64,000 bases of DNA from the IMG/VR virus record IMGVR_UViG_3300022821_000013, positions 29,251 to 93,250 of that record, one strand, 5' to 3'. Below the pieces are notes generated by a model. The model did not search any database. It was not told the origin of the DNA and saw only the letters and a list, made by a program, of their open reading frames with translations. The DNA comes from a virus. Position 1 is the first letter of the stretch. Every line of letters starts with the position of its first letter. The translations under genes were made by a program, and so were the position numbers. This document shows positions 7,647-61,074 of the stretch, one piece after another.

Positions 7647-7880
7647 TTACAGTTTAGGCATTAACTCTTCAAGTATTTCACCACATTTAGAGCAACAGAA
7701 TACATCTATTGGGATGAACTGATCTGTTGGTTGTCCTGTTAATATAGCGGACGCTCTACGTATAATCATTTTAGTTTCAAATACATCATAATCACATGAT
7801 TTACAATGTACTTCTGTTGTCTTAGTTATATCTAATCTTGGTTGTTGCATTTGCTGATTGTTAGCTCCTACTAAATCCAT
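7647..7880 (-). CDS. Small zinc-ribbon protein
   Basis: This 77-residue protein has two CxxC knuckles, C26-K-S-C29 and C63-S-K-C66, separated by a region with ASAILTGQPTDQFIPID. This is the usual spacing of a zinc ribbon that binds nucleic acid or another protein. It sits between clamp-loader genes 44 and 62 with one-base spacers, so it is produced together with them. Similar small zinc proteins occur in replication regions of T4-like phages; the exact role is unknown. The N-terminus (NNQQMQQP) is probably disordered. Confidence 0.75.
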   Translation of the reverse strand: MDLVGANNQQMQQPRLDITKTTEVHCKSCDYDVFETKMIIRRASAILTGQPTDQFIPIDVFCCSKCGEILEELMPKL

Positions 7881-10229: not shown

Positions 10230-11018
10230 TTATTTATTAATTTTTAAAGGTGTCAATACATATTTTGCGTGTATATCAGAGTTTTCAAAATCAAAGAATA
10301 ATGCTGACATAGGAATATCATTTGATTGTGTTGCAATTGCATAATCTAAAATTACATCATCTGTTATTGATTTTCCCTGTTCCAATATCTTTAATAGATA
10401 TATAGGGTCATAAACATCAACATGATTATTCTTCTTTGGTACATTTGTATCTATAAATTCACAATCTAATCTCAACTCTACATTACCAGATAGATTTTCA
10501 CCTTCAAATTTCAGAATATTATATTCATCTCCATCTGAATTTGCAATTCTAACCGAAGTTGGCTTGAATATAGATATTAATTTAGAGTATGAATTAATAA
10601 AGTCATTGTTTAAATGACATGTTAATGTTGGAACTGGAATATTAACAATATCTCTAACGTCTTCATATTCTGAATTGCATCTAAATGATATTTTTCTTTT
10701 TGTGTCATTAGCATGTAAATATAATGGAATCCCATTATGATTGCCTTCAACCTTAAAGTTTATATCATCTTCCATTATAGATAGAGTTTTCTTCAATTCA
10801 TCTGCATTTTTTAAAATAACACCACCAGTCTCACCATTTATAAATGGATGTTTGAATATAGTTGTAGTTTTAAACTGTGTATGTGTTGGTGGTTGCATAG
10901 TAACTTTAACTCTGCTATCATCGTAATTCAACTTAAATGATAAATGTTGTTCATTTATCTTACCTAATAAAAAGGTATCTATGTATTTGACAAATACATC
11001 TCTCTTAACTGACATCAT
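10230..11018 (-). CDS. 45: DNA polymerase sliding clamp, gp45-like (by position and fold pattern)
   Basis: This 262-residue protein has no catalytic motif but shows the strand-rich, lysine-dotted pattern of a processivity clamp. It ends with SDIHAKYVLTPLKINK, resembling clamp C-termini that finish in '..yvLAPl'. It lies two genes upstream of the clamp loader, as 45-44-62 do in T4. T4 gp45 has 228 residues, so this is slightly longer. The first two codons are both ATG; GGAGG lies 4 bases before the second ATG (11015), so translation may begin at residue 2. It overlaps the methyltransferase remnant by 14 bases. Confidence 0.6.
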   Translation of the reverse strand: MMSVKRDVFVKYIDTFLLGKINEQHLSFKLNYDDSRVKVTMQPPTHTQFKTTTIFKHPFINGETGGVILKNADELKKTLSIMEDDINFKVEGNHNGIPLYLHANDTKRKISFRCNSEYEDVRDIVNIPVPTLTCHLNNDFINSYSKLISIFKPTSVRIANSDGDEYNILKFEGENLSGNVELRLDCEFIDTNVPKKNNHVDVYDPIYLLKILEQGKSITDDVILDYAIATQSNDIPMSALFFDFENSDIHAKYVLTPLKINK

Positions 11019-11337
11019 CCCTCCAAGGGTTAATAAAAATTTGATAAATTATATTCTTCTTCTTTTCTTTTTCTGTTTTCTTTATTACGTCAATTTCTTT
11101 TGGTTCAACTTTCTTATTTACAAATAACTCATGTTTGGATATTCTATCTTTGGTAGTATTAAAAGATTTTTCTTCTAATTCTATACCAATAAAATTTCTA
11201 TTTAGATTAGCACATACTATACCAGTTGTACCAATACCATAAGGTGGGTCGGTAACTACTGCATCAACTGAATTATCATTTAAAACCTTTAAAACTTTAA
11301 GACTATCGCCTTGTAACAATGTGTGTGTATTACTCAT
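11005..11337 (-). pseudogene. Internally deleted DNA methyltransferase remnant, frame still open
   Basis: This 110-residue product starts like a beta-class DNA methyltransferase, LLQGDSLKVLKVLNDNSVD then VVTDPPYG (motif IV). It jumps directly into the end of motif I, GTTGIVCANLNRNFIGIELE, and the following helix (TTKDRIS). The intervening target-recognition region and the first half of the SAM-binding loop (FxGS) are absent, so the product reads DPPYGIGTTG across the seam. A clean in-frame deletion of a longer gene is the simplest explanation. It cannot be a working methyltransferase. It directly follows a strong promoter (11367-11398), so it may persist as a leader cistron for the clamp gene. 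The lysine-rich C-terminus (KKTEKEKKKN) is not part of the family. Confidence 0.8.
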
Positions 11338-11400: not shown

Positions 11401-14148
11401 TTAATAAAAATCATTACAATTTACATTATCAGTTGGTAATCTCCAATTAGCCGTATCATATATAGCTGATAGCTTATTACTTAACTCACTATCGTATATC
11501 TTCTCTATATTAATATATGTTTTTATAAACTCCATAATCTTAGGGTATGGTGTCTCCATAGGATAACCAATAATACTAAGGTTAAATGGATTATGTTTTA
11601 AATATACATATTTAATCTTATCACCTTGTTTTATAGCTTGATACTTAAAATCAGCATCGAAGAACTTCAATAATCTATTATACCCCAAAGCAGCCTTAAC
11701 TGGTGCAGTAGCACCTTTTTGAAACACATATATAGTTTTGTCCAACTCTGGATCATCATATTGATCTAACGTCTTAACAGATGATATTTTCGATATATAT
11801 TCTAGATCATCAGCAGTTATAGAGTTCATCAAATCAATTATTAGTTTATCACATTTAGGTTTATCATTTTCAATTAACATTATATTCAATAACGTAGATA
11901 AATGGTCTTGGAATTTAACTGGAAATGAAGATCTAACAACTTCAATACCTTTAAAGTCAATTGGATTGGCTAAATCACGTTTTCCCTCACTATCAACTAC
12001 ATATTGTGCATATCTCTTCTTACCTAACCATAAACCACGTCTAGTTATTTTCTCACGGTTAAACTTCAATCTATTATTATTAGAATGTAATGCTGATTTT
12101 GAGAATATCTCTAATGAATCATTTATAGAATTACAATAATCTTCTGCTATATCTGATAATTTATCTAAGTCTTCTTCTTTGTATTCTGATGGGTGAAATG
12201 GTAGATAACTTGAATCGGTATCATTATAGATAATAACATCATCAAATGGTAAGTCGTGTTTTACAGAGTATAGTTTGTTGAATACATACGATGCATATTT
12301 AATAATATCTCTACCAGTAGATGTTACTGCACTTGCATTCTCCAAGTCATAAAATCTAAATGTTTCTAATCCTAACACACCATATATAGAGTTTAATAGG
12401 ATTTTTTGTACTAATTGTAATTTATCATAATATCGTTCCATATCATAATCACCGTCTTTTCTACAAGACTTCATCTTATCTTTATAATCTAAACGTTTAT
12501 CAAACCAATCAGATAATATTTCTGGTATTAGACCTATTTTATCAGTAGAATACATCATACCATTAGAAGCTATAGTATATTTATTTTCTAATATAAACTC
12601 TATAAATTCATCTTTAGTAACTTCAAATACTTCTTTATTTAGATTTTCAAGTCTAAGTATAGTATCATCATTTATATAACCAAAGTCATAATTAATCTTA
12701 TCAAAATCAACATCACCATCAACAAAGCGTGATATATACTTCATCAGATTGACTTCTTCCCAATTCAATATCTTACCTGCTTTAGTTTCAGGAGATATAT
12801 TCAACGTTATAATGATAGATGGGTATAATGACTGTAAATCTATAGAGAATAACCATTCATATATATTAGTCTCTGGTAATCTAACGTATGCACCCTCAAA
12901 TGCTAATTTTATTTCTACGTTCTCTTTGAATGGTTTGGTTATATGTTTATTTAGATAAAATACACCATCTTCATAGTTATGATATTCATATACATCTGCT
13001 TTCTTAACTCTAAATACCTTTAATAAGCCATTAGTTGGTATTCTATGTCTTACAGCATCACAATCTACATGTAACTCATTAAGTCCTATTGTATGAGCTT
13101 TATTAGATGTTATATTCATACGTGGTTTCTTATTAGGTGCTATTATGGATTTTCTATCCATATAACTCATAATAGCACCTTCGATAACAGATGATGAATG
13201 TTTGAATTGTTGATATGGTATATGTGATATATGACATATTCTACGTGTCAACTCCACAAAGTCCAACTTAGCATCTAACTCTTTTATTAACTTAACATCG
13301 ACTAAGTTATACTCTATGAATTTTTCAATGTCTTCTCTGAATAACGTATCTAAACTACCCTCATAATCTATCTTACCATGACCTAATTCATGTTTAGATA
13401 CATAGTCTAGTTTATAACTTGGTAACTCTGAATAGTTATAGTTCTTATATACAATCATATAGTCTAATGACGCTAAACCTGCTATATCAACATACTTATT
13501 TCTTTCGCTATATTTAACTATACCTATAGGACTTAATTTCTTTACCCAATTATACCCTAATATATTTTTAATTCTAAAATATAGGTATCTAATATCAAAG
13601 TTATCACTGTTCCAACCTAATATTATATGTGGGCTTATTTCAGACATTTTATTTATAAACGCCTTTAATAGATTAACATCATTATTATAAGATGTAACAA
13701 TTACATTAGCTTCTTTATCATACGAATGTTTATGTTCTGACACTACAAATACATAATATATATCTGATGTCTGGTCGTACAACGCAATTGACGTTATATA
13801 ATTATTGGCTTCTTCCGTTATCAACTGACCAGATACCATTTCAACCTCTATATCGACAATAACTGTCTTTATATTAGTTGATACATCATCACTAAAATTA
13901 TACAATTTAATTAATTGGTCTATATCAGGTGATAGATCCACTTGTAGATAATCATCCGAATTTCCATTGTAAGTTTTGGATGTTACAACTGGATGATCAC
14001 TAAACAGATATTTCAATTCTGTTTCTTCTTTTGGATCCTTAGCTAATCTAAAAAATTCGGAATCACGTTCAAAAGATACATATCCTTCAGTGTCATCCCA
14101 TAAATGATATAGATTTTCCTTTCTATCAAAGTATATAGATTGGTACAT
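11401..14148 (-). CDS. 43: Family B replicative DNA polymerase, gp43-like
   Basis: This 915-residue polymerase has the 3'-5' exonuclease motifs VIVDIEVEM (Exo I, D99/E101), GWNSDNFDI (Exo II) and YNLVDVKLI (Exo III). Polymerase motif A SIDLQSLYPS is near residue 433, motif B KILLNSIYGVLG near 583, and motif C YNDTDSSYL near 641. All catalytic acids are present, so it should be an active proofreading enzyme that works with the gp45 clamp. Length matches T4 gp43 (898). It is the last gene before the promoter at 11367. Confidence 0.97.
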   Translation of the reverse strand: MYQSIYFDRKENLYHLWDDTEGYVSFERDSEFFRLAKDPKEETELKYLFSDHPVVTSKTYNGNSDDYLQVDLSPDIDQLIKLYNFSDDVSTNIKTVIVDIEVEMVSGQLITEEANNYITSIALYDQTSDIYYVFVVSEHKHSYDKEANVIVTSYNNDVNLLKAFINKMSEISPHIILGWNSDNFDIRYLYFRIKNILGYNWVKKLSPIGIVKYSERNKYVDIAGLASLDYMIVYKNYNYSELPSYKLDYVSKHELGHGKIDYEGSLDTLFREDIEKFIEYNLVDVKLIKELDAKLDFVELTRRICHISHIPYQQFKHSSSVIEGAIMSYMDRKSIIAPNKKPRMNITSNKAHTIGLNELHVDCDAVRHRIPTNGLLKVFRVKKADVYEYHNYEDGVFYLNKHITKPFKENVEIKLAFEGAYVRLPETNIYEWLFSIDLQSLYPSIIITLNISPETKAGKILNWEEVNLMKYISRFVDGDVDFDKINYDFGYINDDTILRLENLNKEVFEVTKDEFIEFILENKYTIASNGMMYSTDKIGLIPEILSDWFDKRLDYKDKMKSCRKDGDYDMERYYDKLQLVQKILLNSIYGVLGLETFRFYDLENASAVTSTGRDIIKYASYVFNKLYSVKHDLPFDDVIIYNDTDSSYLPFHPSEYKEEDLDKLSDIAEDYCNSINDSLEIFSKSALHSNNNRLKFNREKITRRGLWLGKKRYAQYVVDSEGKRDLANPIDFKGIEVVRSSFPVKFQDHLSTLLNIMLIENDKPKCDKLIIDLMNSITADDLEYISKISSVKTLDQYDDPELDKTIYVFQKGATAPVKAALGYNRLLKFFDADFKYQAIKQGDKIKYVYLKHNPFNLSIIGYPMETPYPKIMEFIKTYINIEKIYDSELSNKLSAIYDTANWRLPTDNVNCNDFY

Positions 14149-14214
14149 TTATTGTATTTGTATTTGTATTGAATGTCATATATGATATGACTTAAAAACT
14201 AAAAAAACTAAAAA

Positions 14215-14643
14215 TTAAGATCCAGTAGAACCAAATCCACCATCACCACGTTCGCTATTAGATAATTCATCTACTTCGATTAAATTAATATCTTCTAACT
14301 TCTCAATTATCAATTGAGCTACTCTATCACCAACACCATATACATCGTATGGTGGGTAGGCATTTGTGTATTTAAACATTACGAATATCTCACCTGTATA
14401 ACCACAATCTATTATACCAGTTGAATTAGCTAACATCAAATCAGTCTTTGATATTGAACTTCTTGGATATATTTTACCAACATAACCTTCTGGTATTTCA
14501 ATTGACAACCCAGTACCACATTTAATACCTATATTAGTATCAATTACTGATGTTGCAACCATATCAAACCCAGCATCTGTTTTATGTGCTTTGGTTGGTA
14601 TTTGTGCGTATTCATTTAATCGTTTAAATTTAACATTTAACAT
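14215..14643 (-). CDS. dut: dUTPase (dUTP diphosphatase)
   Basis: This 142-residue trimeric-type dUTPase has all five motifs: DAGFDMVA (I), PRSSISKT (II), GIIDCGYTGEI (III), GDRVAQLII (IV) and the C-terminal GDGGFGSTGS (V). It converts dUTP to dUMP, keeping uracil out of phage DNA and providing dUMP for thymidylate synthesis. The start MLNVKFKRLN is at the expected place for the family. It is preceded by a hairpin terminator (14673-14701). Confidence 0.97.
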   Translation of the reverse strand: MLNVKFKRLNEYAQIPTKAHKTDAGFDMVATSVIDTNIGIKCGTGLSIEIPEGYVGKIYPRSSISKTDLMLANSTGIIDCGYTGEIFVMFKYTNAYPPYDVYGVGDRVAQLIIEKLEDINLIEVDELSNSERGDGGFGSTGS

Positions 14644-14672
14644 TTGAACCTTAGAATTAAATTAAAAATCAA

Positions 14673-14701
14673 GAATCACTACTATATATTAATAGTGATT
14701 C
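14673..14701 (-). terminator. Rho-independent-like hairpin
   Basis: A perfect 9-bp stem, GAATCACTA/TAGTGATTC with an 11-base loop, followed on the minus strand by TTGATTTTTAATTT. It ends transcription coming from the 66-residue gene before dUTPase. Confidence 0.75.
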
Positions 14702-14736
14702 CGTTACTTTTTCTCCACATGGAAGATAAGCTAAAA

Positions 14737-14937
14737 CTACTTAACTGAAAAATTAACATCATGTTTTTTCATTTGGTCTATTTTGACTGGAGTTAAATAT
14801 TGAACTATTGCTCCAACAACAAGCTCTGTTTCTGGATCAACTATAAAATTTATAGTCTTGTTATCAGATTCGTCCTTAACTGACACTGTAAGTTTGATGC
14901 CATTTATAGCACCTAACAATTCATAAATAATTTCCAT
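14737..14937 (-). CDS. Small hypothetical protein
   Basis: This 66-residue protein begins MEIIYELLGAINGIKLTV and has segments that look beta-rich (INFIVDPETELVVGAIVQYL). No motif, signal peptide or membrane segment was recognised. It is flanked by a terminator on each side (14955-14984 upstream and 14673-14701 downstream), so it is a single-gene unit whose promoter was not identified; read-through from upstream is possible. Confidence 0.6.
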   Translation of the reverse strand: MEIIYELLGAINGIKLTVSVKDESDNKTINFIVDPETELVVGAIVQYLTPVKIDQMKKHDVNFSVK

Positions 14938-14954
14938 TATTACCTTTTATTTAA

Positions 14955-14984
14955 AATGGGTAGTGGATTAAAATACTACCCATT
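14955..14984 (-). terminator. Terminator after the T9SS-sorted surface protein gene
   Basis: A perfect 10-bp stem AATGGGTAGT/ACTACCCATT with a 10-base loop, followed by TTAAATAAAAGG on the minus strand. It lies 8 bases after the stop codon at 14992. Confidence 0.85.
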
Positions 14985-14991
14985 ATTTTAT

Positions 14992-16548
14992 TTACATTGT
15001 AAATTTATAAACTGATGTTGTACCATCAAATTCAATTATAATCATAAAATACATACCACTATTATAACCTGATATGTCTATAGTTGGTTGTACAGAGTTA
15101 CCACTAACTTCATATACGACCTGTCCTATATAATTAGCTATATATAGATGTGATACTGTTCTTGGATTATCAATAGTAATTATACCATTGCTAATAGAAC
15201 TATATACACTTATATCTTGAATATTATTTTTATCTTCTATTTCAACACTTAAAGGTATATCCTTAATTAAAGTAACCAATATATTAACTGTATCTGGCTT
15301 AACGCTCTTTAAGCTATCAATAACAATAGCCATATCATCAATTACTTTATATAAACTATCTTCTTTACATTCATCTATAATAGTAACTAAACCAGTTTCA
15401 ACATTCAATTCCGTATATACATCATCAGTAACAAATTTGAACTTTAACGTTGAATCCATTGGATTAACTGTATATTTGTAATTAGTTTGTAATTGCCAAT
15501 TAGTATTTATTTTGGTAAATGTTTCTGATGAATTACGCTGAACATATACATATACATATCTAAAGTTAGTAGAATACGCCCAAGCAAACTCTATAACATC
15601 AGTAACTTTATATATACTTCCGATTGGACCAACTTCAAACCACTTGTATTGACTTTTGATTGTAACTTCATTTAACTTATAGCCCCACTCAGTATAAAAC
15701 TCTAATAATATAGTTTCATCTATACCAATTGAAGTTGTATATTCATATACAGATTGGTTATAAGGTATAATACCATACTCAACACCATCTTTATAAACTA
15801 CTATATGCGTATATTCTGATATTCTATTTGAGTTAATTAATAATTGTACTTTCTGACCATCTTTATAAGTTGATAGTTCAACTTCATTCTTATTGATTAC
15901 ATATAACTCTGCATTTACAAACGTAGCATTTTGTGTCTTTGCTATTGCATAATTAATACCGTCATAAGCAAGTCTAAATTTAACATCTTGCATAGCAAAT
16001 TCATTATGAACTGCTATAGTTTTAGATGCTACATCAACATCACCCAATCCAGTCCATGTACCTGATGCTAATTTATATTGTAGTTCTAATCTACTTGGAA
16101 CTGTACTAATATCAATATCCCAAGTTAAATAGAATATATCATCATACCAAATAGTATCTATGTTATTGAATGTACCTGATGCATAAATGACATTTATATC
16201 TACATCTGTAACGTCAGTTGGTAATATTGAGAATGTTCCAGAATTTCTATTTCCTGTGTGTATTCCAAGTTTACCATTTGAAATTAATCTATCGGGTATA
16301 TATTCTACCGATATAGTATTTGAGTTTCCCCAACCAAATGTATTAGATATTTTAGTCCATGTATTAGATGCTACATCTAACTCAGAAATATAAAAATCTG
16401 TTGGTGTGTTTGTTTCAATTACTTCTAATTGATATTCAACATCATAAAAATATTCCGATTTATTCGCTGTTTGTTGCTCGAACGTTTGTTCTGCATTTAC
16501 ATTGGTAGCGATTACCAGTAATAATGATAATATTAATTTGTTTATCAT
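14992..16548 (-). CDS. Secreted protein with Sec signal peptide and type IX secretion sorting domain
   Basis: This 518-residue protein starts with a clear signal peptide (MINKLILSLLLVIATNVNA, cleavage after A19). The middle is beta-rich, apparently of fibronectin/Ig-like repeats. The last ~75 residues fit a type A T9SS C-terminal sorting domain: ISVYSSISNGIITID, then LYIANYIGQVVYE, then IDISGYNSGMYFMIII and a final VYKFTM. In Bacteroidota this domain sends proteins across the outer membrane to the cell surface. The gene stands alone between two terminators (16613-16632 and 14955-14984), like a moron gene. A plausible role is changing the host surface, for example superinfection exclusion. A virion role is less likely given the secretion signals. 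Confidence 0.85.
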   Translation of the reverse strand: MINKLILSLLLVIATNVNAEQTFEQQTANKSEYFYDVEYQLEVIETNTPTDFYISELDVASNTWTKISNTFGWGNSNTISVEYIPDRLISNGKLGIHTGNRNSGTFSILPTDVTDVDINVIYASGTFNNIDTIWYDDIFYLTWDIDISTVPSRLELQYKLASGTWTGLGDVDVASKTIAVHNEFAMQDVKFRLAYDGINYAIAKTQNATFVNAELYVINKNEVELSTYKDGQKVQLLINSNRISEYTHIVVYKDGVEYGIIPYNQSVYEYTTSIGIDETILLEFYTEWGYKLNEVTIKSQYKWFEVGPIGSIYKVTDVIEFAWAYSTNFRYVYVYVQRNSSETFTKINTNWQLQTNYKYTVNPMDSTLKFKFVTDDVYTELNVETGLVTIIDECKEDSLYKVIDDMAIVIDSLKSVKPDTVNILVTLIKDIPLSVEIEDKNNIQDISVYSSISNGIITIDNPRTVSHLYIANYIGQVVYEVSGNSVQPTIDISGYNSGMYFMIIIEFDGTTSVYKFTM

Positions 16549-16612
16549 AACTAACCTAAAAATTTAACAACTATAAATAAATATAAGTTAAAATTTTAAT
16601 TCCTTTAAATAA

Positions 16613-16632
16613 AGCCGAGTTTTAAGTCGGCT
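16613..16632 (-). terminator. Terminator upstream of the T9SS protein gene
   Basis: A GC-rich stem AGCCGA/TCGGCT with an 8-base loop, followed by TTATTTAAAGG on the minus strand. It closes the small-gene unit that ends with the 34-residue frame and insulates the surface protein gene. Confidence 0.75.
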
Positions 16633-16641
16633 AATTTATAA

Positions 16642-16746
16642 TTAATCTTTCTTAATATTAAAAAACCTAAGTTTCCACCTTTTATTTTCGTATTGTGCTC
16701 CATAAATACCAAAAAGATATTCATCTGCATTCATCATAATCGCCAT
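16642..16746 (-). CDS. Very small hypothetical protein (34 residues)
   Basis: This open frame begins at ATG 16746, after AGGATGG, and ends at TAA 16642, just before the terminator at 16613-16632. The product starts MAIMMNADEYLFGIYGAQ and ends WKLRFFNIKKD. The acidic/aromatic N-terminus and basic C-terminus look protein-like, and the frame fills most of an otherwise empty 228-base gap. No homologue is known to me; the evidence is limited to position and composition. Confidence 0.45.
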   Translation of the reverse strand: MAIMMNADEYLFGIYGAQYENKRWKLRFFNIKKD

Positions 16747-16776
16747 TTACACCATCCTAATATTCATCAATAGATT

Positions 16777-17091
16777 TCATAGCCGCCTTTGTCTTATAGT
16801 TCTATTTTCAATTTCTTCTAAAAACTCATCTGGTAATCTAGGAATTTCAGACCAATATAAAATATCTTGTCCGAAGTATGTGGATGGTCCAAAAGTCTTC
16901 CAGTTGTAATCCCTCTTGTTATTACTTTCATTTTTAGCTTTATTCCGCCACATAATAACTGACCTATGATACATATCTTCAGGATACTCCCAATTATCTC
17001 CGTGATACCATCCAATAACACATTTACCAAATTCTGGTAAACTGTCAGATGTACGATTCCATTTAAACTCACGTGTTTTTTGACTAAACAT
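16777..17091 (-). CDS. DUF551-like small protein
   Basis: This 104-residue protein has the DUF551 layout: RTSDSLPEFGKCVIGW near the start and FGQDILYWSEIPRLPDE near the end, like 'W...de.lPe.g..Vl ... vthWmplPepP'. It is Trp-rich. Proteins of this kind are common in phages, but the function is unknown. It is the first gene downstream of a strong promoter (17145-17176). Its stop overlaps a 7-codon frame (MKSIDEY) that I do not annotate. A second frame over the same bases is a shadow. Confidence 0.75.
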   Translation of the reverse strand: MFSQKTREFKWNRTSDSLPEFGKCVIGWYHGDNWEYPEDMYHRSVIMWRNKAKNESNNKRDYNWKTFGPSTYFGQDILYWSEIPRLPDEFLEEIENRTIRQRRL

Positions 17092-17144
17092 TTAGTCTCC
17101 TGTAATTAATTAATATTAAATACTACATGTATTTATTTATTTTA

Positions 17145-17176
17145 CAAACTTACAAAAAAGAAATTACTATTCCAAA
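17145..17176 (-). promoter_or_regulatory. Bacteroidota-type promoter upstream of the DUF551-like gene
   Basis: Minus strand TTTG (17173-17176), 20-base spacer, TAAGTTTG (17145-17152). Same sequence family and spacing as the other strong sites. The -33 part overlaps the last codons of the small gene 17167-17325. Confidence 0.85.
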
Positions 17177-17325
17177 TTATTTATTTCCATAGTATCATAT
17201 TTTAATTTTACATTGATACCTGAACCACCAGTAAAATAATCACTAATATCAAAATCATGATCAGACATAATAATATATACTATATCTAATATAACGTATT
17301 TACGATATACAATAGTTTCATACAC
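17167..17325 (-). CDS. Small hypothetical protein overlapping a promoter
   Basis: This open frame ends at TAG 17167. The longest plausible form begins at GTG 17325 (52 residues), 10 bases after the previous stop and preceded by AGG. A shorter form begins at ATG 17268 (33 residues, MSDHDFDISDYFTGGSG). The sequence is acidic and soluble-looking, and the frame fills the gap between neighbours. Its 3' end runs into the -33 element of the promoter at 17145-17176. The start is uncertain and the function unknown. Confidence 0.45.
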   Translation of the reverse strand: MYETIVYRKYVILDIVYIIMSDHDFDISDYFTGGSGINVKLKYDTMEINNLE

Positions 17326-17334
17326 AACACCTAC

Positions 17335-17559
17335 CTAATTTAGACGTGTTACAGTTATATCATGTACATTTCTATCAGTACCAAATGTGTTTATTAAGAA
17401 CACATCAACATTATCCTCTATAGAATTATATAAGTTAACTTCTAACGTTTTATCCTTTACTGACGTTAGAGCAACTCTACATATATCATATTCTGGTATT
17501 TCATTATACCATTTAGTCACTACACAGCTCAAATCTTTATCTTTGAATATTCCAAACAT
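17335..17559 (-). CDS. Small hypothetical protein
   Basis: This 74-residue protein starts MFGIFKDKDLSCVVTKW. It contains no recognised motif; the pattern of short hydrophobic strands (CRVALTSVKDKTLEVNLY) suggests a small beta fold. It follows the AAA+ ATPase gene after 21 bases and is probably read from the same message. It could be a cofactor of the ATPase, but this is only positional. Confidence 0.65.
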   Translation of the reverse strand: MFGIFKDKDLSCVVTKWYNEIPEYDICRVALTSVKDKTLEVNLYNSIEDNVDVFLINTFGTDRNVHDITVTRLN

Positions 17560-17580
17560 AATCTTATACCCACTTATTAA

Positions 17581-18999
17581 TTATAAAATAAAATCTTTTT
17601 TTGAATCATCGAAATTCTCATCAGTTGCGAAAGTTATAGATTGTCTTTCTGATAACTTGCTATATATTGATGACACTGTTGTCTTCTTACTTTTTAATAA
17701 AACATCATCTTCTATTTTTAATTTGTCCATTAACACCTTAACATTTTTAGATGTAACATAACCAAATTTAAAATTACCTATCAATCTACCTTCTCTTAGA
17801 ATAGCTTTATCTATATCAAATTTATCAGTATTAAATGTTAATATCATTTGTATCTTCAAAGCACTATTTAATATACCATCAGTTGAGTTTAATAGATTGG
17901 ATATACCATTTGATACATTACCATTATCTCTACTTAATAATATCGATTCTGCCTCTTCGACGATTAATAATATATTCTCCTTTACGTCCTTATTCTGAGC
18001 TGATAGCTCAGTTAGAAAGCCAATAAACGAAGGATCAGTTAAGTTATTAATCATATTAGGCTGTACAAATATAACACATTTATTATCTAATCTACGTAAC
18101 ATATGCTTTATACAATAAGACTTACCAGAACCAGGTACACCGTGAAATAACACGATTCCTTTAGTTGATGTTCTTATATTAGAAACTAAACTTTCATATC
18201 TATCTTCAAACCCATCACCATAATGAATATCCAAATCTTCAAATTTATCATTTATATAATCTAATTTTATAGATTTCAATGTAAATCCAGAATGTGTTGT
18301 GCTTATTAAATTAACATATTCAGTCTTATTGATAATATCATTATATGATATAGTTGCTTTGGAAAAATACCCTATTATAGAATTATATACATCTATAGAA
18401 TCTTGTATTTTATCTGCACCATAAGGATTTATATCTAAAGTAATTGAACCTATATAAGAATCATTTAATGTTTCTGAATCGTAATCATCATCGTAATATA
18501 TATCATCGTCATCTGTATCAACTTGATATTTAGTATCATCATTTAAACCCATTATATTAATTGTTAATATACAAGGCAAACCATTTAATGTATACTTAAA
18601 GTCTAAATATAAATCTCTATTTATTTTACCACGCATCCCTATCAATGAGAAACCAAGTGATAATATTTCATCTAATACAGAATCGTCGTATTTGTGAACT
18701 ACTCGTTTTTTACTTTTAAAACTATTATTTAAAATGGAAGTTATATCAATTGTTATTGGTGTATTAAGACCACCAGAAGTTATGAACCTACGTTTTATCA
18801 ATGTAGAATTAGAGTTAGTATCATAATCCAACGTAACAATAGCATTAGCATCGTCATCACGTGACAATTTATTAGTTATATCTATTTTTGATATTAATTT
18901 AAGAATACTCTTATACATTCTATTAGTTAATATATTATTATGTATTGTATTAGAGTTTATTTTTTCTATACTACTATTAGTTCCATTTGATATTAACAT
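17581..18999 (-). CDS. AAA+ ATPase of the classic AAA type
   Basis: This 472-residue protein has a poorly conserved N-terminal ~270 residues including an acidic run (DTDDDDIYYDDDYD, about 161-174). A C-terminal AAA module follows: Walker A GVPGSGKS (287-294), Walker B LLIVEEAE (344-351), LLNSTDG, sensor 1 TFN (388-390) and ILREGRL. The order matches BCS1/proteasome-type AAA proteins that remodel or unfold proteins. Many T4-like phages of marine bacteria carry such an ATPase with unknown substrate. It starts downstream of nothing obvious as a promoter; the reductase terminator lies on the other side. Confidence 0.88.
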   Translation of the reverse strand: MLISNGTNSSIEKINSNTIHNNILTNRMYKSILKLISKIDITNKLSRDDDANAIVTLDYDTNSNSTLIKRRFITSGGLNTPITIDITSILNNSFKSKKRVVHKYDDSVLDEILSLGFSLIGMRGKINRDLYLDFKYTLNGLPCILTINIMGLNDDTKYQVDTDDDDIYYDDDYDSETLNDSYIGSITLDINPYGADKIQDSIDVYNSIIGYFSKATISYNDIINKTEYVNLISTTHSGFTLKSIKLDYINDKFEDLDIHYGDGFEDRYESLVSNIRTSTKGIVLFHGVPGSGKSYCIKHMLRRLDNKCVIFVQPNMINNLTDPSFIGFLTELSAQNKDVKENILLIVEEAESILLSRDNGNVSNGISNLLNSTDGILNSALKIQMILTFNTDKFDIDKAILREGRLIGNFKFGYVTSKNVKVLMDKLKIEDDVLLKSKKTTVSSIYSKLSERQSITFATDENFDDSKKDFIL

Positions 19000-19053: not shown

Positions 19054-22000
19054 TCACCCACATTTACTAGAGCCACAATCTAAACAAGTAAGACACCCAT
19101 CCTGATATGCTAAATTTGTGGATTTGCATTCGGAACATTCATGCCCAGTTACAACTTCCAAATCATTTATATATCGTTTAAGTATACGTTTAACACCTGA
19201 TTTCCATGATGTTATAATATCACCATCTAAATTAAGACCATCTAATAAATCAACCACATATTTGATTGGCATACCATGCCTTAAAATAGCACTTACAATT
19301 CTACTAACATCATCGAATTCCTTAATCCCATACATTTTCAAATCAATAGTTGTAATTCTATCATCACCCTTCATATATATAAATATATATTCTGATTTAC
19401 CGTTTATTTTGGTTCGTTCAATCCAACCATTAGTAACATTATTAAGATTAAAATCTATATTATCAACTGGAATGGTAAATAGTTCGTATGGCTTATCATT
19501 ATATAATCCAACAAAACCAAACCATTTAGTACCATTAGATGTAAAATGAATAACATCACAATTTATTGTTTTGGGTCGTTTTGGTGCTTTAGTATCTTCA
19601 AATAAATCAATTTTAGTATCATTATTTGAAATTAAAACTCCACTACGAGATCCATCTCTATATATAGTACACCCCTTACATCCACTTTCCCAAGCAGTCA
19701 AATATATTTTATCAACTGTATCCTCATCAATATCATTTGGTAAATTAACCGTTACTGATATTGAGTGATCTACCCATTTCTGTATTTCACCTTGCATCTT
19801 AACTTTCTCCACCCAATTAACATCATTTGATGTTGCTTTATAATATGGAGACATAGATATTATAATATTAATCGTATTTTCATCTAAACCTACAAGATAT
19901 TCTTTACATTGATTATAATCCCATGATTCACTTATAACATCATTAGTTATATTAGAACGTATGTCATTCTGATTGTAAAAGAACCAATCTATGAATTTAT
20001 GGTGAAATACATTAAATTCCATCCATTTATCACCTAATTCATCTACAAAATCAACACGTGTATTTCTATCAGTTGGATTTATTTTTCTTCGTCTTCTATA
20101 TGAAACTAAAAACACAGGTTCAACCCCAGATGAAGTCTGTGTCATCATTGATACAGTTCCAGTTGGAGCAATAGTTAGTAACCCAATATTACGTCTTCCA
20201 TATTTCAATAAGTCATCTTTTATAGATGGGTCAGATTCTAATATCCTATTTATAAATGGATTGTCTTTCTCTATATCCCAATCCCATATTGGAAAATTAC
20301 CTCTATCTTTTGCTAATTGAACTGATTCCCTGAATACATTTATAGCATAACGTTTATGAACTTCTACTGAAAATTCAGTAGCAGGTGGAGTTCCATATAT
20401 TAATCCCATAGCAGCTAACATATCACCTTCACCAGTAACACCTATACCAGTTCGCCTACCCATCTCACATTTATATTTAATTTTAGTCCATAAATCAATT
20501 TCAGTTTGCTTGGTATTAATATCTTCAGGGTCTAAATTTATTTTTTCTAATATAGAATCAATTTTTTCTAATTCCAAATCAACTATATTATCCATTATTC
20601 TCATAATATATTTAGAATGTTCATCGAATAATTCCCAATCAAATTCAGCGTGTTTTGTAAATGGATTTTTAACGTAACTATATAAATTTAAAGCAGTTAA
20701 TCTACAACTATCATATGGAGGTAAAACAATTTCACCACATTGGGCAGTGAATACACCTATCATATTATTATGTCCAATTGAATTTTCTTTTATATCAGTT
20801 ATAAATGCCAATGTATGATTATCATCAACAGTTATATTATATACATCTTCATAACCATATATCTCTACAGATTTTACTTTGTGGTTATAATCAATGGATT
20901 TATATTTTAATTCTTTATATGTTTTAAATGGTGAATTAGGTCCAAATCTAAATGGAATATTATTTGTTTTACATCGTTCCTCCCACTCTACTTTGAGTGG
21001 GGTTCTATCCAATTCAAATTTCAAATCAGAATATATCTTAATTTGTAAGTCTTTATGTTTAATTTTAGTATCACTTGCTTGTCTACGAAGACCATTTAAA
21101 TTAGAGTTATCTGGTTTAGACCATGAATTCAAAGTAGAACATTTACGTGAACAAAATGTAGACTCTTTTGCATCATACGTAGTGTGGAATTCAGAGTTGC
21201 AATTTTCACATTTTTTATTAATGTAAACCTTACCTGTATCTATAAATACATCCAAATTCAAATCCATACCTTTATGTAATGTTTTAACTACTCTAGGATC
21301 AACATCATTATATTCACCAAATCCAAGTTTATTTGCTGCCCACACTGATAAATCGTTTAAATCATACCCTAAAGTATCAACTCTCCATTTTGATAATGAC
21401 TGTGGTATACCTTTCGATTTAGCAAATGTTGACCATTCCTTATAAGAAAATCTTCTTCTGAGTGTACTCGTTAAATCCAACGCATATTCTTTAATGTCTT
21501 CATTTGTAAATCCAGAGTATTTTCCATTCTTTTCTCCTTGTGTATCATTATCAGCATGATACTTGGCATGTTCTCTGAATGTCATAATCTCTAGATTATC
21601 AGGTGAATTATTTAATCCATTATAATCTTTATGATGTACAACCAAGCCACCATTAACCCAACCATTAACCTTATTTGCATTGTATTTTTCAGACCATAAT
21701 TCTGGATTGTTATATTTAGCAATTAACTTATGCTCAAATAATTTATCAATCGTAGAATCTTTGGTATTAGTATTAATTCTATAATATGGATTAGTATTAT
21801 TCTTTGATATGCGTTCTGAACGTTTAGTAAACCTCATTAAACTATCACCACATTTCAAATCCTTAGCCTCTATTTTAGTACCATCATATAATAAAAATTT
21901 ATGATTTGTAGTTGTCTTAATAGATGAGCCATCATCAAGTGTTATTTTTAGAATTTGTCTATCATTAACAGTTAGTCTTGGATTCCTACCCATTTTAATA

Positions 22001-23103
22001 TCTACTTTCCCAGTGATTGGATCTACACTATAAACAGGAACATCTTCTCCAATCTCAGCTAATTCTCGTATAGGAACACTATTTCTACCATCTGCAACCG
22101 CAACTAATGTATCCCCAGTCACACATGGATTTGTACTTACATCTCCAAAACCATATTCTTTATAACAATTACCAATTGATTCAGATAACATTTTATCCCA
22201 AAACATTACTCCTGGTTCTGCACTATTCCAAGCATTATGAATTATTTTAGACCATATATCCCTTGCTATTATTTTATTTCTTAATTCAGTCCCATCATTA
22301 TATTTAAAAACTAAATCATAACATATTTTATTCTCTAATTCATCAAGTTTAGTCTGTTCTGAATCAGTTATATCTAATTTATCACGTAACGTTTTATATA
22401 AATCTACATCTTCTTGGTTTGTTCGTTTGACAATAAACATAAATTCATCTAACATTTTAACTGATACATTAGCACCAGTTACCTTACCACTTTCCATTTT
22501 AGCATCTATAAAATCACCTACATCTGGATGCGAAACCAAAATAGATAGCATAAGTGCACCTCTCCTACCATCTTGACCAACTTCCCTTGTAGAATTTGAA
22601 TATCGTTCCATAAATGGAACTACACCTGTGGATGTTTTAGCTGAATTGTTCACAGGGCTATGTTTGGGTCTTATATGAGATAAATCATGACCAACCCCAG
22701 CTCTCCTCTTCATTAGATGTACTTGTTCTTCATCTATTTTAAGTATAGATCCATATGAATCTTCATCATTACCAATAACAAAGCAATTACTTATACTTAT
22801 AGTTTGTAAATCATTTCCTATGCCAAACATAGGACTTCCTTGTGGGATTATATATTTAAATCTATCAAATAAATTGAAATAAAAAGCTGAATCCTTCGCA
22901 TTTGGATATTTATTATCGATTCTAGAAATTTCATCCGATAACCTCCAATGCATATTTTCTGGATTTAACTCATAATAAATATTATCTTTATTCAATGAAT
23001 ATTTCGAAATCCAAGTTGTGGCTGAAATATCTTCATTGTTAAAATAGTTTTTTGTACTTTCTAATAAATCATCGTATGAATATGTATTCTGACTTATATC
23101 CAT
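19054..23103 (-). CDS. nrdJ: Class II (adenosylcobalamin-dependent) ribonucleotide reductase with intein
   Basis: The 1349-residue precursor holds an 887-residue reductase and a 462-residue intein (residues 327-788). Reductase signatures are SISNCFVIGND, RRAGVGHDLSHIRP, RRGALM, STNP-C, CGEIVLPPYDSCRL after the intein, APTGTVSMMTQTSSGVEPVF, and a C-terminal zinc/redox tail with CSEC and CLDCGSSKC. Class II enzymes make deoxynucleotides without oxygen dependence and need B12, unlike the NrdAB pair of T4. It stands in its own unit between helicase and a terminator. AGAGG lies 8 bases upstream of ATG 23103. After splicing, the catalytic cysteine region is restored. Confidence 0.95.
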   Translation of the reverse strand: MDISQNTYSYDDLLESTKNYFNNEDISATTWISKYSLNKDNIYYELNPENMHWRLSDEISRIDNKYPNAKDSAFYFNLFDRFKYIIPQGSPMFGIGNDLQTISISNCFVIGNDEDSYGSILKIDEEQVHLMKRRAGVGHDLSHIRPKHSPVNNSAKTSTGVVPFMERYSNSTREVGQDGRRGALMLSILVSHPDVGDFIDAKMESGKVTGANVSVKMLDEFMFIVKRTNQEDVDLYKTLRDKLDITDSEQTKLDELENKICYDLVFKYNDGTELRNKIIARDIWSKIIHNAWNSAEPGVMFWDKMLSESIGNCYKEYGFGDVSTNPCVTGDTLVAVADGRNSVPIRELAEIGEDVPVYSVDPITGKVDIKMGRNPRLTVNDRQILKITLDDGSSIKTTTNHKFLLYDGTKIEAKDLKCGDSLMRFTKRSERISKNNTNPYYRINTNTKDSTIDKLFEHKLIAKYNNPELWSEKYNANKVNGWVNGGLVVHHKDYNGLNNSPDNLEIMTFREHAKYHADNDTQGEKNGKYSGFTNEDIKEYALDLTSTLRRRFSYKEWSTFAKSKGIPQSLSKWRVDTLGYDLNDLSVWAANKLGFGEYNDVDPRVVKTLHKGMDLNLDVFIDTGKVYINKKCENCNSEFHTTYDAKESTFCSRKCSTLNSWSKPDNSNLNGLRRQASDTKIKHKDLQIKIYSDLKFELDRTPLKVEWEERCKTNNIPFRFGPNSPFKTYKELKYKSIDYNHKVKSVEIYGYEDVYNITVDDNHTLAFITDIKENSIGHNNMIGVFTAQCGEIVLPPYDSCRLTALNLYSYVKNPFTKHAEFDWELFDEHSKYIMRIMDNIVDLELEKIDSILEKINLDPEDINTKQTEIDLWTKIKYKCEMGRRTGIGVTGEGDMLAAMGLIYGTPPATEFSVEVHKRYAINVFRESVQLAKDRGNFPIWDWDIEKDNPFINRILESDPSIKDDLLKYGRRNIGLLTIAPTGTVSMMTQTSSGVEPVFLVSYRRRRKINPTDRNTRVDFVDELGDKWMEFNVFHHKFIDWFFYNQNDIRSNITNDVISESWDYNQCKEYLVGLDENTINIIISMSPYYKATSNDVNWVEKVKMQGEIQKWVDHSISVTVNLPNDIDEDTVDKIYLTAWESGCKGCTIYRDGSRSGVLISNNDTKIDLFEDTKAPKRPKTINCDVIHFTSNGTKWFGFVGLYNDKPYELFTIPVDNIDFNLNNVTNGWIERTKINGKSEYIFIYMKGDDRITTIDLKMYGIKEFDDVSRIVSAILRHGMPIKYVVDLLDGLNLDGDIITSWKSGVKRILKRYINDLEVVTGHECSECKSTNLAYQDGCLTCLDCGSSKCG
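20740..22125 (-). mobile_element. Intein with HNH endonuclease inside the reductase gene
   Basis: This 462-codon in-frame insertion interrupts the reductase between STNP and CGEIVLPPY. The N-terminal splice block is C-VTGDTLVAV; block B is KTTTNHKFLLYDG. The endonuclease is HNH: VVHHKDYNGLNNSPDNLEIM followed by HAKYH. A zinc-finger-like segment (CENC...CSRKC) follows. The C-terminal blocks are VYNITVDDNHTLAF and IGVFTAQ before extein Cys. The end is unusual: Ala-Gln where most inteins have His-Asn. Some inteins with terminal Gln do splice, for example the iridovirus RIR1 intein. Confidence 0.9.
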
Positions 23104-32122: not shown

Positions 32123-35100
32123 TTAATTTACGGATTGATTTTCAGTTAAAATTCCAACTGTACCATTGTCCCATTTTGGATTTGATGGTAATACACCATC
32201 TTTATACATTGTAACTGTTACAACACGTTGACCTTTAGATTTTTCACCATAACCAACAGAACGCATATCACTACCAAATGCAATTGAAGCTAATATTTGA
32301 TTTGTTCTATTTGCATCACTAACACTACCACCAGCCTTAAAGTTAGATACGACTCCAGCCTTAATATTGGATGCTCGCCTAAATGATAATTTGTAATTAT
32401 ATTCATCTGGTCCGCTTGGTGATGCATGACCCTCTATATCAAATTTAGCTTTTGGATTTTTTAACTTCTGGTCTATTATATAATTAGTAACATTTATAAC
32501 CTCACTCGATTTTTTAGGTGTATCTACATTATCATCAAAATCAATATTAAATGTGTATATAACTGGTTCTGGTTTTTCTTCTTCCACAACTGGTTCTGGT
32601 TTTTCTTCTTCCACAACTGGTTCTGGTTTTTCTTCTTCCACAACTGGTTCTTCTGTATATACATCACCAACATAATCATAAATTCTACCCATTTTCCTAG
32701 GTTTGTAATTCCCAATTATAGTGTAATTCATATCAACCCTAACACCCATTGGTAATTCTAATATATCATTATCAGATGATTCTTGATATAAATTTTTTAT
32801 TTCCCAGTTATCTTCTCTAAATGTATATGTTAAATTAGTTATGAAACCTGGTACTTGCCAGTATAAATCACCTAATGTCAATCTTAATAGTGGCCCCCAC
32901 ATACGTTTATCTTTATATACAGGAGCTAACATAGAAGCTAAATAGTTTATTTTCTCATATATAACTTGCATTTCAACTCTGGAAAATGCATGCATATCAA
33001 AACTCAATGTCAAATTTCTATCATACGATTTATAAATATAAACTGGATCAGCTCTACCTATTAATCCATAAGAATCCCAATTAGCATTATGATTTTCAAC
33101 TACACTATTTAAGAATGCTCTCATTACGATAGCGTGATAACCTAAATTACTTTTGTGTTTTGGATCTGATTGTTCAGTTTGAATATCTATCGTATCATCA
33201 GATTCTTCTTTTGTATCACCAAATACAGATGGTTCTATATCTATCTCATTCTTATCTAATAACGTACCACGTGAATCATATTGCTTATCAAACATAAGCC
33301 CTGCACAAGTAATAAAGAATTTTATATAATCTCTTGATCCTTGATTGTATATCTCCGATGCATCTTGACTTAAAATATTTGATTTTTCACTTGCATCTAC
33401 AGTTTTAGAGAAGTCTCTAACCTTAATCATATTAATTTTATCTTCTCTATAAGTTCTCATTCTAGGATCAGACCTATCTATACCTGGTAATCCCTCTTGA
33501 CCCCAACCATATTTCATAATATTTGAATTGTCATAAGTGTTAACTATATTAGGATCGTAATTATAATTAAAGAACTTAGAATCTTTAGTATCTGTACTTG
33601 CTGATATGACATATCTATAGTCTTCTAATTCTTTTGGGTTATATGCTGGATCTCTATTATATCCAAAAAAATCATATCCTGTAGTTGCATATGCACCTAA
33701 TGATTGATCCATTGGTTTTAATCCATCTAAATATTTACCCTCTCGATTATAACTCTCTTCTAATAAATTATCAGTATTATTATGAGTCTTATTAGCTATA
33801 AACGTATTTATTAAATGATTATTGTGATCTACATCACCATATTTTAAAAATTTAGATATTAATGATTTATTTTTAGTTAACTCTTCAAATGGATCACCAT
33901 TATGCTCATCTAATAATTTAGTAGCTGTACTGTTAGGTACACGTGTTCCATTAGCAGATGAATAATATTGAAAGTAAGGTGAATAATATTGATATAATCT
34001 ACTATCTTCTGTTTCTGATATTGAATATCTACGTATTAACGTAGCTCCTATACCAAATATACTCTGTGCACCAGTAGATCTAGATGATATTTTATTTATA
34101 ATATCACCAACATACGAATCTTTTCCTGTTGCAATCCAAGTTATTAAATTTGATATTTTAGATAGAGTTTTATCATATACATCACTAGCATTTAAATATG
34201 AATCTCTAACTGAATAGTGGTGTGGGAATAATTCTTTTGTTAACATTAACAATCTATTATCTGTTCCTTGTTCACCTATAACTAATGACGTATCAACCTG
34301 TGATAGATTTTTACCTTGACTCGTCACATTCCTTTTATTTACTATATATTCGTAATTTTTATGCTTTTCAAATGGAAGTTCCAATCCATGCCTTTGAATT
34401 CTCATTCCACCTGAAGATAGAATAGTTGATAATGGATTGTATATCTGTGTTGATCTAATATTAAATATATTTTCTATCAAACCAAATCCATCCGATGGTG
34501 TCTCAACCGTAGAGTTCATCAATTGCATTCCAACTTGCCTAATAGTATTTAGTATTCCTTTTGCAGAACCCATATACTTTGTTATTCTATAAGCATGTGT
34601 CGCTGAACGGTCGATATACGGTGATAAACGTTCGTATAGGTAAGATTTGTCAAACCCATATCTATTTGGCTCACCATCAAGCTGAATACCACGTAGAATG
34701 TATGGTTGTTGCATCCAATCGTTTTGATGTGATGTATCTCTAAGATTAAACTTAGAATATTGTTCTTTTAGATTTTTATCCGAAAGTATAAAATCAGTTG
34801 ACTTTGGAATTTTGTAAGGTATAAATCCTTTACTGTATTTATTAGAGAACCAATCCACAGGAACCATATTATTCGCTTTCCAAACAAACTCTGATGTATC
34901 CATTATATATTCAGTTTGTTTGATAACATTAAATATAGTAAATCCAGTTGCATTAACATCAGCAAAGAAATTAACACTATTTGGAATCATACCTTTCCAT
35001 ACGAATATGGACGTGTCCATTATGTATTCGGTTATCAGTGGTGGTGCAAATAAAGTAAATCCAGTTGCATTTGTATTAGGGAACCAATTTACAGCTGGTA

Positions 35101-40039: not shown

Positions 40040-40076
40040 AATAAGCATTTCTATTAAATAAATAGAAATGCTTATT
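40040..40076 (-). terminator. Long perfect hairpin before the tape measure gene
   Basis: A 16-bp perfect stem (40040-40055 / 40061-40076) with a 5-base loop that includes the stop codon of the 61-residue gene. The following minus-strand sequence is ATTTTAGAATGG, so termination may be partial; it may also protect or separate the messages. Confidence 0.75.
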
Positions 40077-40257
40077 TGTTTTTACTATCTTCATATTGCT
40101 TATTTTCAGTCTCAATCTGCTTAATTAACATATTAGTGTATAATTTTCGTTTATTGACTGGCATCTCATATACATCGTCAAATGTAAAACCACCTTTACC
40201 AAAATATATAAGATTAAAAATTTCTTGATTTATATACAGACTACTCTCGTAGCCCAA
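40072..40257 (-). CDS. Small conserved tail-assembly-region protein
   Basis: This 61-residue protein has the pattern IFNLIYFGKGGFTFDDVYEMPVNKRKLY, which recurs in T4-like phages of marine bacteria directly after the gp26-like gene ('yyGKGGf.wd..y.MP...R.fY...l'). It ends in a charged helix. The product may be a tail assembly chaperone, comparable in position to the short proteins made before the tape measure, but that is inference. It overlaps the gp26-like gene by 17 bases. Confidence 0.7.
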   Translation of the reverse strand: MGYESSLYINQEIFNLIYFGKGGFTFDDVYEMPVNKRKLYTNMLIKQIETENKQYEDSKNK

Positions 40258-60678: not shown

Positions 60679-61074
60679 TTATAACATTATTAATATACCT
60701 AAAATCAACCCAGTTCCTAACCATAGTTCTTTTCTATCATACCATTTAGGTTGTAACTCTTCTATTCTTATCTTCTGTAGATTTATTATATCTTGATTTA
60801 ACTTCTGTGATTTATCATATTCAGTTAATAAAAATTGATGTTCTTTTATAGTTGACTTATATAGTTCTATTTGTGACATCCTATTATGTATAATACTATC
60901 TTTATTATCAGATATATCGGTTAATATTTCTATCTTCTTCTGTAACTCATATATCTTAAATCCATATTTATACAAGTTCTCTCTTGGTAAACAAGTATCA
61001 GATTTCATTATATCAACTTGCGAATATAAACTGTATGTTGATAATATGAATATTAATATTATTATTCTACTCAT
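60679..61074 (-). CDS. Spanin-like protein: signal sequence, coiled coil, C-terminal membrane segment
   Basis: This 131-residue protein begins with a signal-like helix (MSRIIILIFILSTYSLYSQ). A predicted coiled coil follows (KIYELQKKIEILTDISDNKD onward), ending in a hydrophobic segment (LWLGTGLILGILIML). The double-anchored layout recalls u-spanins, but no lipobox Cys is visible near residue 20. It overlaps the upstream spanin-like gene by 8 bases, as Rz/Rz1-type pairs often do. Position after the lysis genes and before terminase supports a role in outer membrane disruption. Confidence 0.55.
   Translation of the reverse strand: MSRIIILIFILSTYSLYSQVDIMKSDTCLPRENLYKYGFKIYELQKKIEILTDISDNKDSIIHNRMSQIELYKSTIKEHQFLLTEYDKSQKLNQDIINLQKIRIEELQPKWYDRKELWLGTGLILGILIML

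Follow-up and report, generated by a model that had tools for sequence, protein, structure and literature searches.

Can a phage send one of its own proteins to the surface of the infected cell through the type IX secretion system (T9SS) of its host? The question is raised by a gene in a stretch of 64,000 nucleotides, hereafter the window, which spans positions 29,251 to 93,250 of IMG/VR record IMGVR_UViG_3300022821_000013. A first-pass annotation had described it as a phage gene whose product carries a Sec signal peptide and a type A T9SS C-terminal sorting domain (CTD), isolated between two terminators in the manner of a moron. In our assessment, the gene probably encodes a late phage protein that is exported by Sec and the host T9SS and that perhaps alters phage adsorption.

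The window carries terminase, portal, major head, and tail sheath genes as well as a family B polymerase, a dUTPase, and an intein-bearing ribonucleotide reductase, and the contig is a large T4-like phage. The open reading frame was found where it had been annotated; it encodes 518 aa on the minus strand, a detail missing from the first-pass annotation. The parts of the gene and its conserved neighbours, which are also present in a second viral contig (L004, IMGVR_UViG_3300007960_000028), are as follows:

14992–16548, minus strand: putative T9SS cargo gene, 518 aa from ATG (ORF translation, codon usage, syntenic L004 orthologue)
16492–16548, minus strand: Sec signal peptide, residues 1–19 (MINKLILSLLLVIATNVNA), cleavage expected before E20 (translation and hydropathy rule; cleavage site by eye)
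15373–16491, minus strand: mature N-terminal and middle region, residues 20–392, predicted beta-rich, without family (profile searches, low-confidence model)
14995–15189, minus strand: T9SS type A-like C-terminal sorting domain, residues 454–518 (PF18962, TIGR04183, Foldseek, VIA-align)
14737–14937, minus strand: 66-aa ORF adjoining the cargo gene, kept in L004 (52% identical)
14215–14643, minus strand: dUTPase gene, syntenic anchor (PF00692, E 6.5e-21)
11401–14148, minus strand: family B DNA polymerase (PolB) gene, syntenic anchor (phrog_262, E 5.8e-161; 64% identical in L004)

The N-terminus of the protein (MINKLILSLLLVIATNVNAEQ), read by eye, is typical of Sec signal peptides, and a hydropathy rule detected a strong N-terminal hydrophobic segment in 3 of the 64 window genes (14992–16548, 60679–61074, and 61067–61396), so that the signal peptide call, made by rule and by eye, agrees with the earlier one. 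Among these three genes a long body is found in 14992–16548 only, the other two encoding short proteins (131 and 109 aa) and adjoining the terminase gene. The body of the cargo protein is acidic and, in a low-confidence model, beta-rich. It had no match in Pfam or PHROG at E ≤ 0.1, and in NCBIfam at E ≤ 1 its sole match was a 37-residue stretch of SurA (E 0.0089); the protein had no match in PADLOC at E ≤ 1, its full length gave nothing meaningful against PDB sequences, and no enzymatic or carbohydrate-binding family was matched in NCBIfam, Pfam, or PHROG. The whole-protein model, built from a two-sequence alignment, consisted mostly of strands at low confidence (mean pLDDT 39) and was excluded from fold searches. 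Repeats within the protein that had been suspected by eye failed to reach significance (best z 1.9).

The sorting domain was sought with curated profiles. PF18962, whose cut-off is 27 bits, matched residues 454–511 of 518 (E 2.1e-5); it scored 25.2 bits in the protein search and 27.6 bits, over the cut-off, in a six-frame search of the whole 93,250-bp record. Concerning the two models with which a comparison had been proposed, TIGR04183 matched residues 456–516 (E 7.9e-4) but stayed under its cut-off of 23 in both searches (19.4 bits for the protein, 22 bits in six frames), while TIGR04131, the gliding-type type B CTD, was absent among the NCBIfam matches to the cargo protein at E ≤ 1. The six-frame searches of the record returned no second match to PF18962 or TIGR04183. 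Both matches lie at the extreme C-terminus, ending at residue 511 (PF18962) or 516 (TIGR04183) of 518. By their E-values they are better than chance, yet weak matches also occur beyond T9SS organisms: at E ≤ 0.01, PF18962 was found in 3 of 14 control genomes, including Deinobacterium chartae and Lactococcus lactis (0 over the cut-off), and TIGR04183 also matched in Deinobacterium chartae. In a T9SS-bearing Flavobacteriales MAG, 3 of the 42 PF18962 matches scored ≤ 26.3 bits in the same kind of search that gave 27.6 bits, and the score of the cargo, although low, is therefore inside the range of such cargoes.

Many T9SS CTDs open with a PNP motif, which is common without being universal and was not treated as defining; it is absent at the start of this domain (SSISNG in the window protein, NITDDN in L004), while PVP or PNP is present in the other phage CTDs aligned, those of G022 and G088 (two related phage records) among them. 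A conserved Gly, a GxY motif, and a C-terminal Lys are further features of T9SS CTDs; when five phage CTDs were aligned (the window, the L004 orthologue, and three other phages), these were the invariant positions, with GxY contributing its Gly and its Tyr. A mixed profile from these five CTDs matched solved CTDs (E down to 1.7e-10) and was discarded, as its rows other than those of the window and L004 drive the result; with a profile from the window and L004 CTDs alone, solved CTDs were reached at E 0.088 at best.

The C-terminal 88 residues were modelled template-free from a two-sequence alignment, giving a model of moderate confidence (mean pLDDT 70, with blocks of 72–84 from residue 21 on) with six strands of 3 or more residues. 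The best two of its 1224 Foldseek matches in the PDB at E ≤ 10 were the CTDs of NucA and RemZ (8glk_D and 8gl8_D; E 2.5e-3 and 9.1e-3, probability 1.00), both from structures of T9SS translocon complexes; no PDB match was obtained at E ≤ 0.001. With VIA-align, the fold was found to be shared with the CTDs of Flavobacterium johnsoniae NucA, RemZ (Z 8.8 and 8.5), and RemA (8gl6; Z 7.7) and of Porphyromonas gingivalis RgpB (5ag8; Z 7.5), which differ from the cargo CTD in being parts of bacterial proteins and in having 10–25% identity to it in these alignments. DUF3244 Ig-like proteins tie with them (Z 8.7 and 8.6), and therefore the fold, a common and unspecific Ig-like beta-sandwich, would not by itself decide the identity of the domain. 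Taken together, sequence profile, position, signal peptide, and modelled fold are best explained by a T9SS CTD.

The same gene stands at the same place in a related phage. L004 has the order cargo orthologue, 66-aa ORF, dUTPase (by eye), and PolB, as in the window; its contig ends inside the orthologue, of which the 256 visible C-terminal residues, 47% identical to the window protein, include the CTD, and the N-terminus with any signal peptide lies beyond the contig end. An identical copy of the cargo is found in IMGVR_UViG_3300023296_000416, and the codon usage of the gene is the third closest to the window average among the 35 genes > 600 nt. Because of its codon usage, the identical copy, and the syntenic orthologue, the cargo gene looks like a settled phage gene. 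In the gene lists used for the codon average and the upstream windows, four small ORFs were shifted by one base (7647–7880, 14737–14937, 17335–17559, and 40072–40257), which changes their upstream windows by ≤ 1 nt and adds little out-of-frame noise to the codon average. Relatives of the protein were rare: tblastn against 50,697 phage records gave no match at E ≤ 1, scans of viral contigs with the cargo returned nothing beyond the identical copy and the L004 orthologue, a scan with the cargo plus the 66-aa ORF found the same two contigs only, and 0 of 125 candidate stretches from a pattern scan of bacterial genomes were confirmed.

When the gene is expressed was addressed through the transcription signals around it:

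16613–16632, minus strand: intrinsic terminator that ends the upstream gene and sets the cargo unit apart (6 pairs, 4 GC, tail TTATTTAAAG)
16577–16585, minus strand: putative late promoter element TATATTTAT, starting 37 nt upstream of the cargo ATG (most frequent upstream 9-mer)
14955–14984, no strand assigned: 11-pair hairpin just 3' of the cargo stop codon (T tract good on plus, weak on minus; minus-strand fold −12.3 kcal/mol)

The 9-mer TATATTTAT is the commonest in the 60-nt stretches preceding genes, where 11 of the 64 genes have it; 300 shuffles gave a mean of 0.65 and never more than 4, but they take no account of its having been chosen by eye before the shuffle test. Its sites in the window are intergenic in 13 of 18 cases on the coding strand versus 0 of 8 on the opposite strand, in a window that is 3.9% intergenic, and 8 of the 11 genes with an upstream copy, the portal gene included, belong to the structural half (32–64 kb). 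Outside the window the element was not enriched: the remainder of the contig has 2 coding and 7 opposite-strand sites, and L004 has 3 and 5, in stretches that by eye carry mostly sugar and replication genes. Because of this scarcity the late reading of the cargo gene draws on the window alone. TTTG-N17-21-TAnnTTTG, which we take to be the Bacteroidota housekeeping promoter consensus, had 4 coding-strand sites in the window, all 4 intergenic, against 2 on the opposite strand (0 of 2 intergenic), and 7 coding-strand versus 0 opposite-strand sites in the contig remainder. These two classes of element therefore suggest late expression of the cargo gene and a host within Bacteroidota.

Two other promoter types were tried and rejected. 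The T4 late consensus TATAAATA was intergenic at 0 of 19 coding-strand sites and at 13 of 23 on the opposite strand, and since its reverse complement overlaps TATATTTATA runs, the direction of the late element was taken from gene orientation. Sigma-70-type sites around the cargo gene were not enriched (28 found vs. 30.9 in shuffles). Upstream of three further genes (32123–36883, 47174–48319, and 57404–59056), TATATTTAT sits on the minus strand 13–15 nt before the ATG (window 36896, 48334, and 59070), so that, if these are −10 elements, the late mRNAs would have no leader or next to none.

Terminator-like sites are concentrated here, with 4 in 14000–17600 against a shuffle mean of 0.6. Of the two terminators said to enclose the gene, the upstream one is present on the minus strand, but the downstream hairpin, though its stem is strong, passes the terminator rule on the plus strand and not on the minus strand, where its T tract is weak; the L004 orthologue is likewise followed by a hairpin (−20.2 kcal/mol) of different sequence. 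The core of the first-pass annotation (phage gene, Sec signal, type A T9SS sorting domain, moron-like unit) is supported by the profile match, the fold match, the syntenic orthologue, and the codon usage.

The promoters and relatives such as immuto make a T9SS-bearing member of Bacteroidota the likely host. The closest listed isolates by terminase were 'Microcystis' phage Mel-JY01 (45.7%) and Flavobacterium phage immuto (TerL, 45.3%). A PolB relative (34%) was found in a contig of a Flavobacteriales MAG from a bacterial genome collection, the same MAG as above, which encodes a full SprA (2384 bits) besides its 42 PF18962 matches; this relative is distant and the binning may be wrong. Mel-JY01 (PP395634) is also the closest listed isolate by PolB (35.3%); next to a Bacteroidota-type window phage, its recorded host may deserve checking. 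In Flavobacterium columnare, according to the part of the source available, resistance to phage V156 arises via gld and spr mutations (PMC9233685), and a protein displayed via the T9SS would for this reason be well placed to affect adsorption. If secreted, cargoes of this type might account for the way in which phages curb competition on these hosts.

Phage proteins of this kind have been predicted before, and the window gene is a further member of a class already in print, now with a link to the cultured phage immuto. In the sections available, Bellas et al. 2020 (PMC7468147) report three predicted T9SS type A cargoes in Cryophage and suggest superinfection exclusion, and a 2019 survey of crAss-like phages (PMC6949934) predicts T9SS sorting domains in phage contigs. 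Like the window phage, Cryophage is a Bacteroidetes phage that encodes proteins with T9SS type A sorting domains (PMC7468147, same sections), but its genome is a 76-kb circle with three variable cargoes (endoglucanase, GH39, and PA14 domain), whereas the window phage is T4-like, and its single cargo, for which no body domain is known, has a late-type promoter motif and a syntenic orthologue. The proteins of crAss-like cluster 2 (PMC6949934, as far as available) share with the window cargo sorting domains predicted in Bacteroidetes phage contigs; they carry BACON domains and lie near head genes, and the likeness is drawn from the sorting domains. The first-pass annotation knew of no well-characterised phage example, and no experimental test of a phage-coded T9SS cargo was found in the literature searched (most subscription papers being outside its reach), but predicted cargoes had been published (PMC7468147, PMC6949934, in the parts available), which weakens the novelty that the annotation implied.

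PF18962 was found in 4 of the 5 records of a first set (the window's, its copy, L004, and immuto), with no match in Mel-JY01. From the roughly 600 hits obtained with each of terminase and PolB, the best 80 were taken; a PF18962 cargo was present in 1 of 40 and 0 of 40 records of terminase relatives and in 1 of 40 and 0 of 39 records of PolB relatives (one further PolB hit was L004, already counted). CTD cargoes are thus sporadic, with 2 in 159 related records, which are mostly short fragments; among records of at least 150 kb in all these sets, a cargo was present in 3 of 7 (G022, G088, and immuto). First-look CTD candidates in five records of PolB relatives (G107, G109, G128, G131, and G153) did not pass.

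The immuto cargo, gp15 (MW353177, 12691–13422), is annotated as a cohesin domain-containing protein and nothing more. Its signal peptide, recognised by eye, and its PF18962 domain, which scores over the cut-off, make it resemble the window cargo, as does its place in a T4-like flavophage, but it differs from that cargo in its cohesin body, its position, and its conserved gene neighbourhood. The cargo of G088 is also a cohesin-CTD protein, and when both proteins were used as queries, 19 viral loci were recovered, the records of both query phages included. A complete CTD end is present in 17 of the 19 (the ORF of L195 stops or frameshifts earlier, and L200 runs off its contig), and in 18 of the 19 the next ORF of at least 70 aa starts with MSEE, the remaining locus having no downstream sequence. 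The neighbourhood comprises, in order, the signal peptide-cohesin-T9SS CTD protein, a small MSEE protein, a protein of ~237–246 aa that by eye resembles CsgG, and a signal-peptide protein of ~465–528 aa:

MW353177 12691–15868 (L182), L183–L201, and L178 4910–9488: immuto-like conserved neighbourhood, the later genes being visible in some loci only

For immuto gp17, two genes after the cargo, the CsgG assignment came from inspection by eye and was dropped: searches of Pfam and PHROG (E ≤ 0.01) and of the PDB (E ≤ 0.1) gave no match. The G022 cargo (L094 8864–12902, in a phage contig of 172.9 kb) has 985 aa with a signal peptide and a T9SS CTD and is rich in GCTDxxxxNYxxxANTDDGSC-like repeats; by eye, its gene is flanked on one side by an amidase-like lysin gene and on the other by one encoding a signal-peptide protein that resembles an outer-membrane barrel, the latter protein having no Pfam match at E ≤ 0.01. 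A search of phage records with the G022 CTD yielded three weak matches (best E 3e-4), all to records lacking annotation. The cargoes of immuto, G088, and G022 are unrelated to that of the window, and this phage group thus seems to have acquired CTD cargoes repeatedly, with differing bodies.

Under the reading that we prefer, the gene would be transcribed late in infection from its own phage late-type promoter, and the product would cross the inner membrane by Sec, lose its signal peptide, and fold in the periplasm. The C-terminal beta-sandwich would then be recognised by the SprA/PorV translocon of the presumed T9SS-bearing host, after which the protein would remain attached to the outside of the infected flavobacterium-like cell or be released from it. 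Conjecturally, the body could cover receptors or compete with them, such that other phages or the phage's own progeny would skip the doomed cell or its debris.

Whether the product would reach the surface at all depends on the CTD. It is unlikely, in our judgement, that the Sec-exported protein stays in the periplasm or outer membrane with a CTD that is degenerate, and no longer recognised by the T9SS, or an unrelated Ig-like domain. Profile scores under or near the curated cut-offs, weak PF18962 matches in control genomes such as Lactococcus lactis, the lost PNP motif, and the DUF3244 tie in VIA-align would all fit such a protein, but the Gly, GxY, and C-terminal Lys common to all five aligned phage CTDs, the T9SS substrates at the top of the Foldseek matches, and the three MAG matches at ≤ 26.3 bits, below the 27.6 bits of the cargo, speak against it. 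We regard as very unlikely that the protein is a fibre or decoration protein of the virion whose N-terminus merely resembles a signal peptide. The late-type motif that it has in common with the portal and other genes of the structural half, together with the beta-rich body of the low-confidence model, would suit a virion protein; however, tailed phages assemble in the cytoplasm, the signal peptide is canonical, the gene lies amid replication genes behind the terminator of its upstream neighbour, and there was no PHROG match at E ≤ 0.1. That a host gene was caught by misassembly or inserted very recently is extremely improbable: the isolated transcription unit would agree with such an origin, but the codon usage close to the window average (third of 35), the identical copy in a second record and syntenic orthologue in another phage, and the lack of any confirmed relative in the bacterial genome pattern scan all speak against it.

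The role of an exported cargo is a separate matter and, because the body has no family match, was weighed by context. Given export, we propose an effect on adsorption tentatively; the first-pass annotation had suggested that the cargo could block receptors or co-infecting phages or alter gliding and adhesion. Late expression would suit a task in the closing phase of infection, for instance preventing superinfection or the loss of progeny on infected cells and debris, better than early takeover. A displayed cargo could equally act on the host or habitat instead, by saturating the T9SS so that host adhesins go unsecreted, by gluing infected cells together, or by binding polysaccharide; this alternative, which concerns the role only and not the export step, is possible without being probable. 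It is in line with the cohesin domains of other phage CTD cargoes and the enzyme domains of Cryophage (PMC7468147, in the part available), but no enzymatic or carbohydrate-binding family was matched in the window cargo. It may also be that phage adsorption to such hosts depends on the T9SS itself. The broader proposition that T4-like flavobacterial phages, immuto included, mask receptors through a late surface protein delivered by the host T9SS, having recruited unrelated cargoes for it, we consider doubtful.

By means of the predicted secretion, the virus may cover or modify the outside of the cell that it infects. Should this secretion be shown, it would be, within the literature searched, the first demonstrated viral use of a host type IX system to remodel the host surface. 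The link to immuto suggests a recurrent phage trait and not a metagenomic oddity, and with this cultured phage and its host, Flavobacterium sp. LMO8, the idea is testable now.

Several other features of this phage were noted. The large subunit of ribonucleotide reductase (window 19054–23103, B12-dependent by profile) is interrupted by an intein with an HNH endonuclease. At window 11005–11337, a 110-aa piece resembles by eye the N-terminal part of a DNA methyltransferase and is probably a shortened methyltransferase-like gene, the corresponding ORF at L004 4363–5724 having 453 aa. Left of the window (G000 1–29300; L179, L180), a cluster of NeuB-, NeuA-, GDP-mannose dehydratase-, aminotransferase-, and glycosyltransferase-like ORFs, recognised by eye, suggests phage-coded synthesis of surface sugars. 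Several paralogous small proteins with repeats like KxEFDSNNNEIYWENSNGDW are encoded at L179 1122–2512 and L180 7274–9374.
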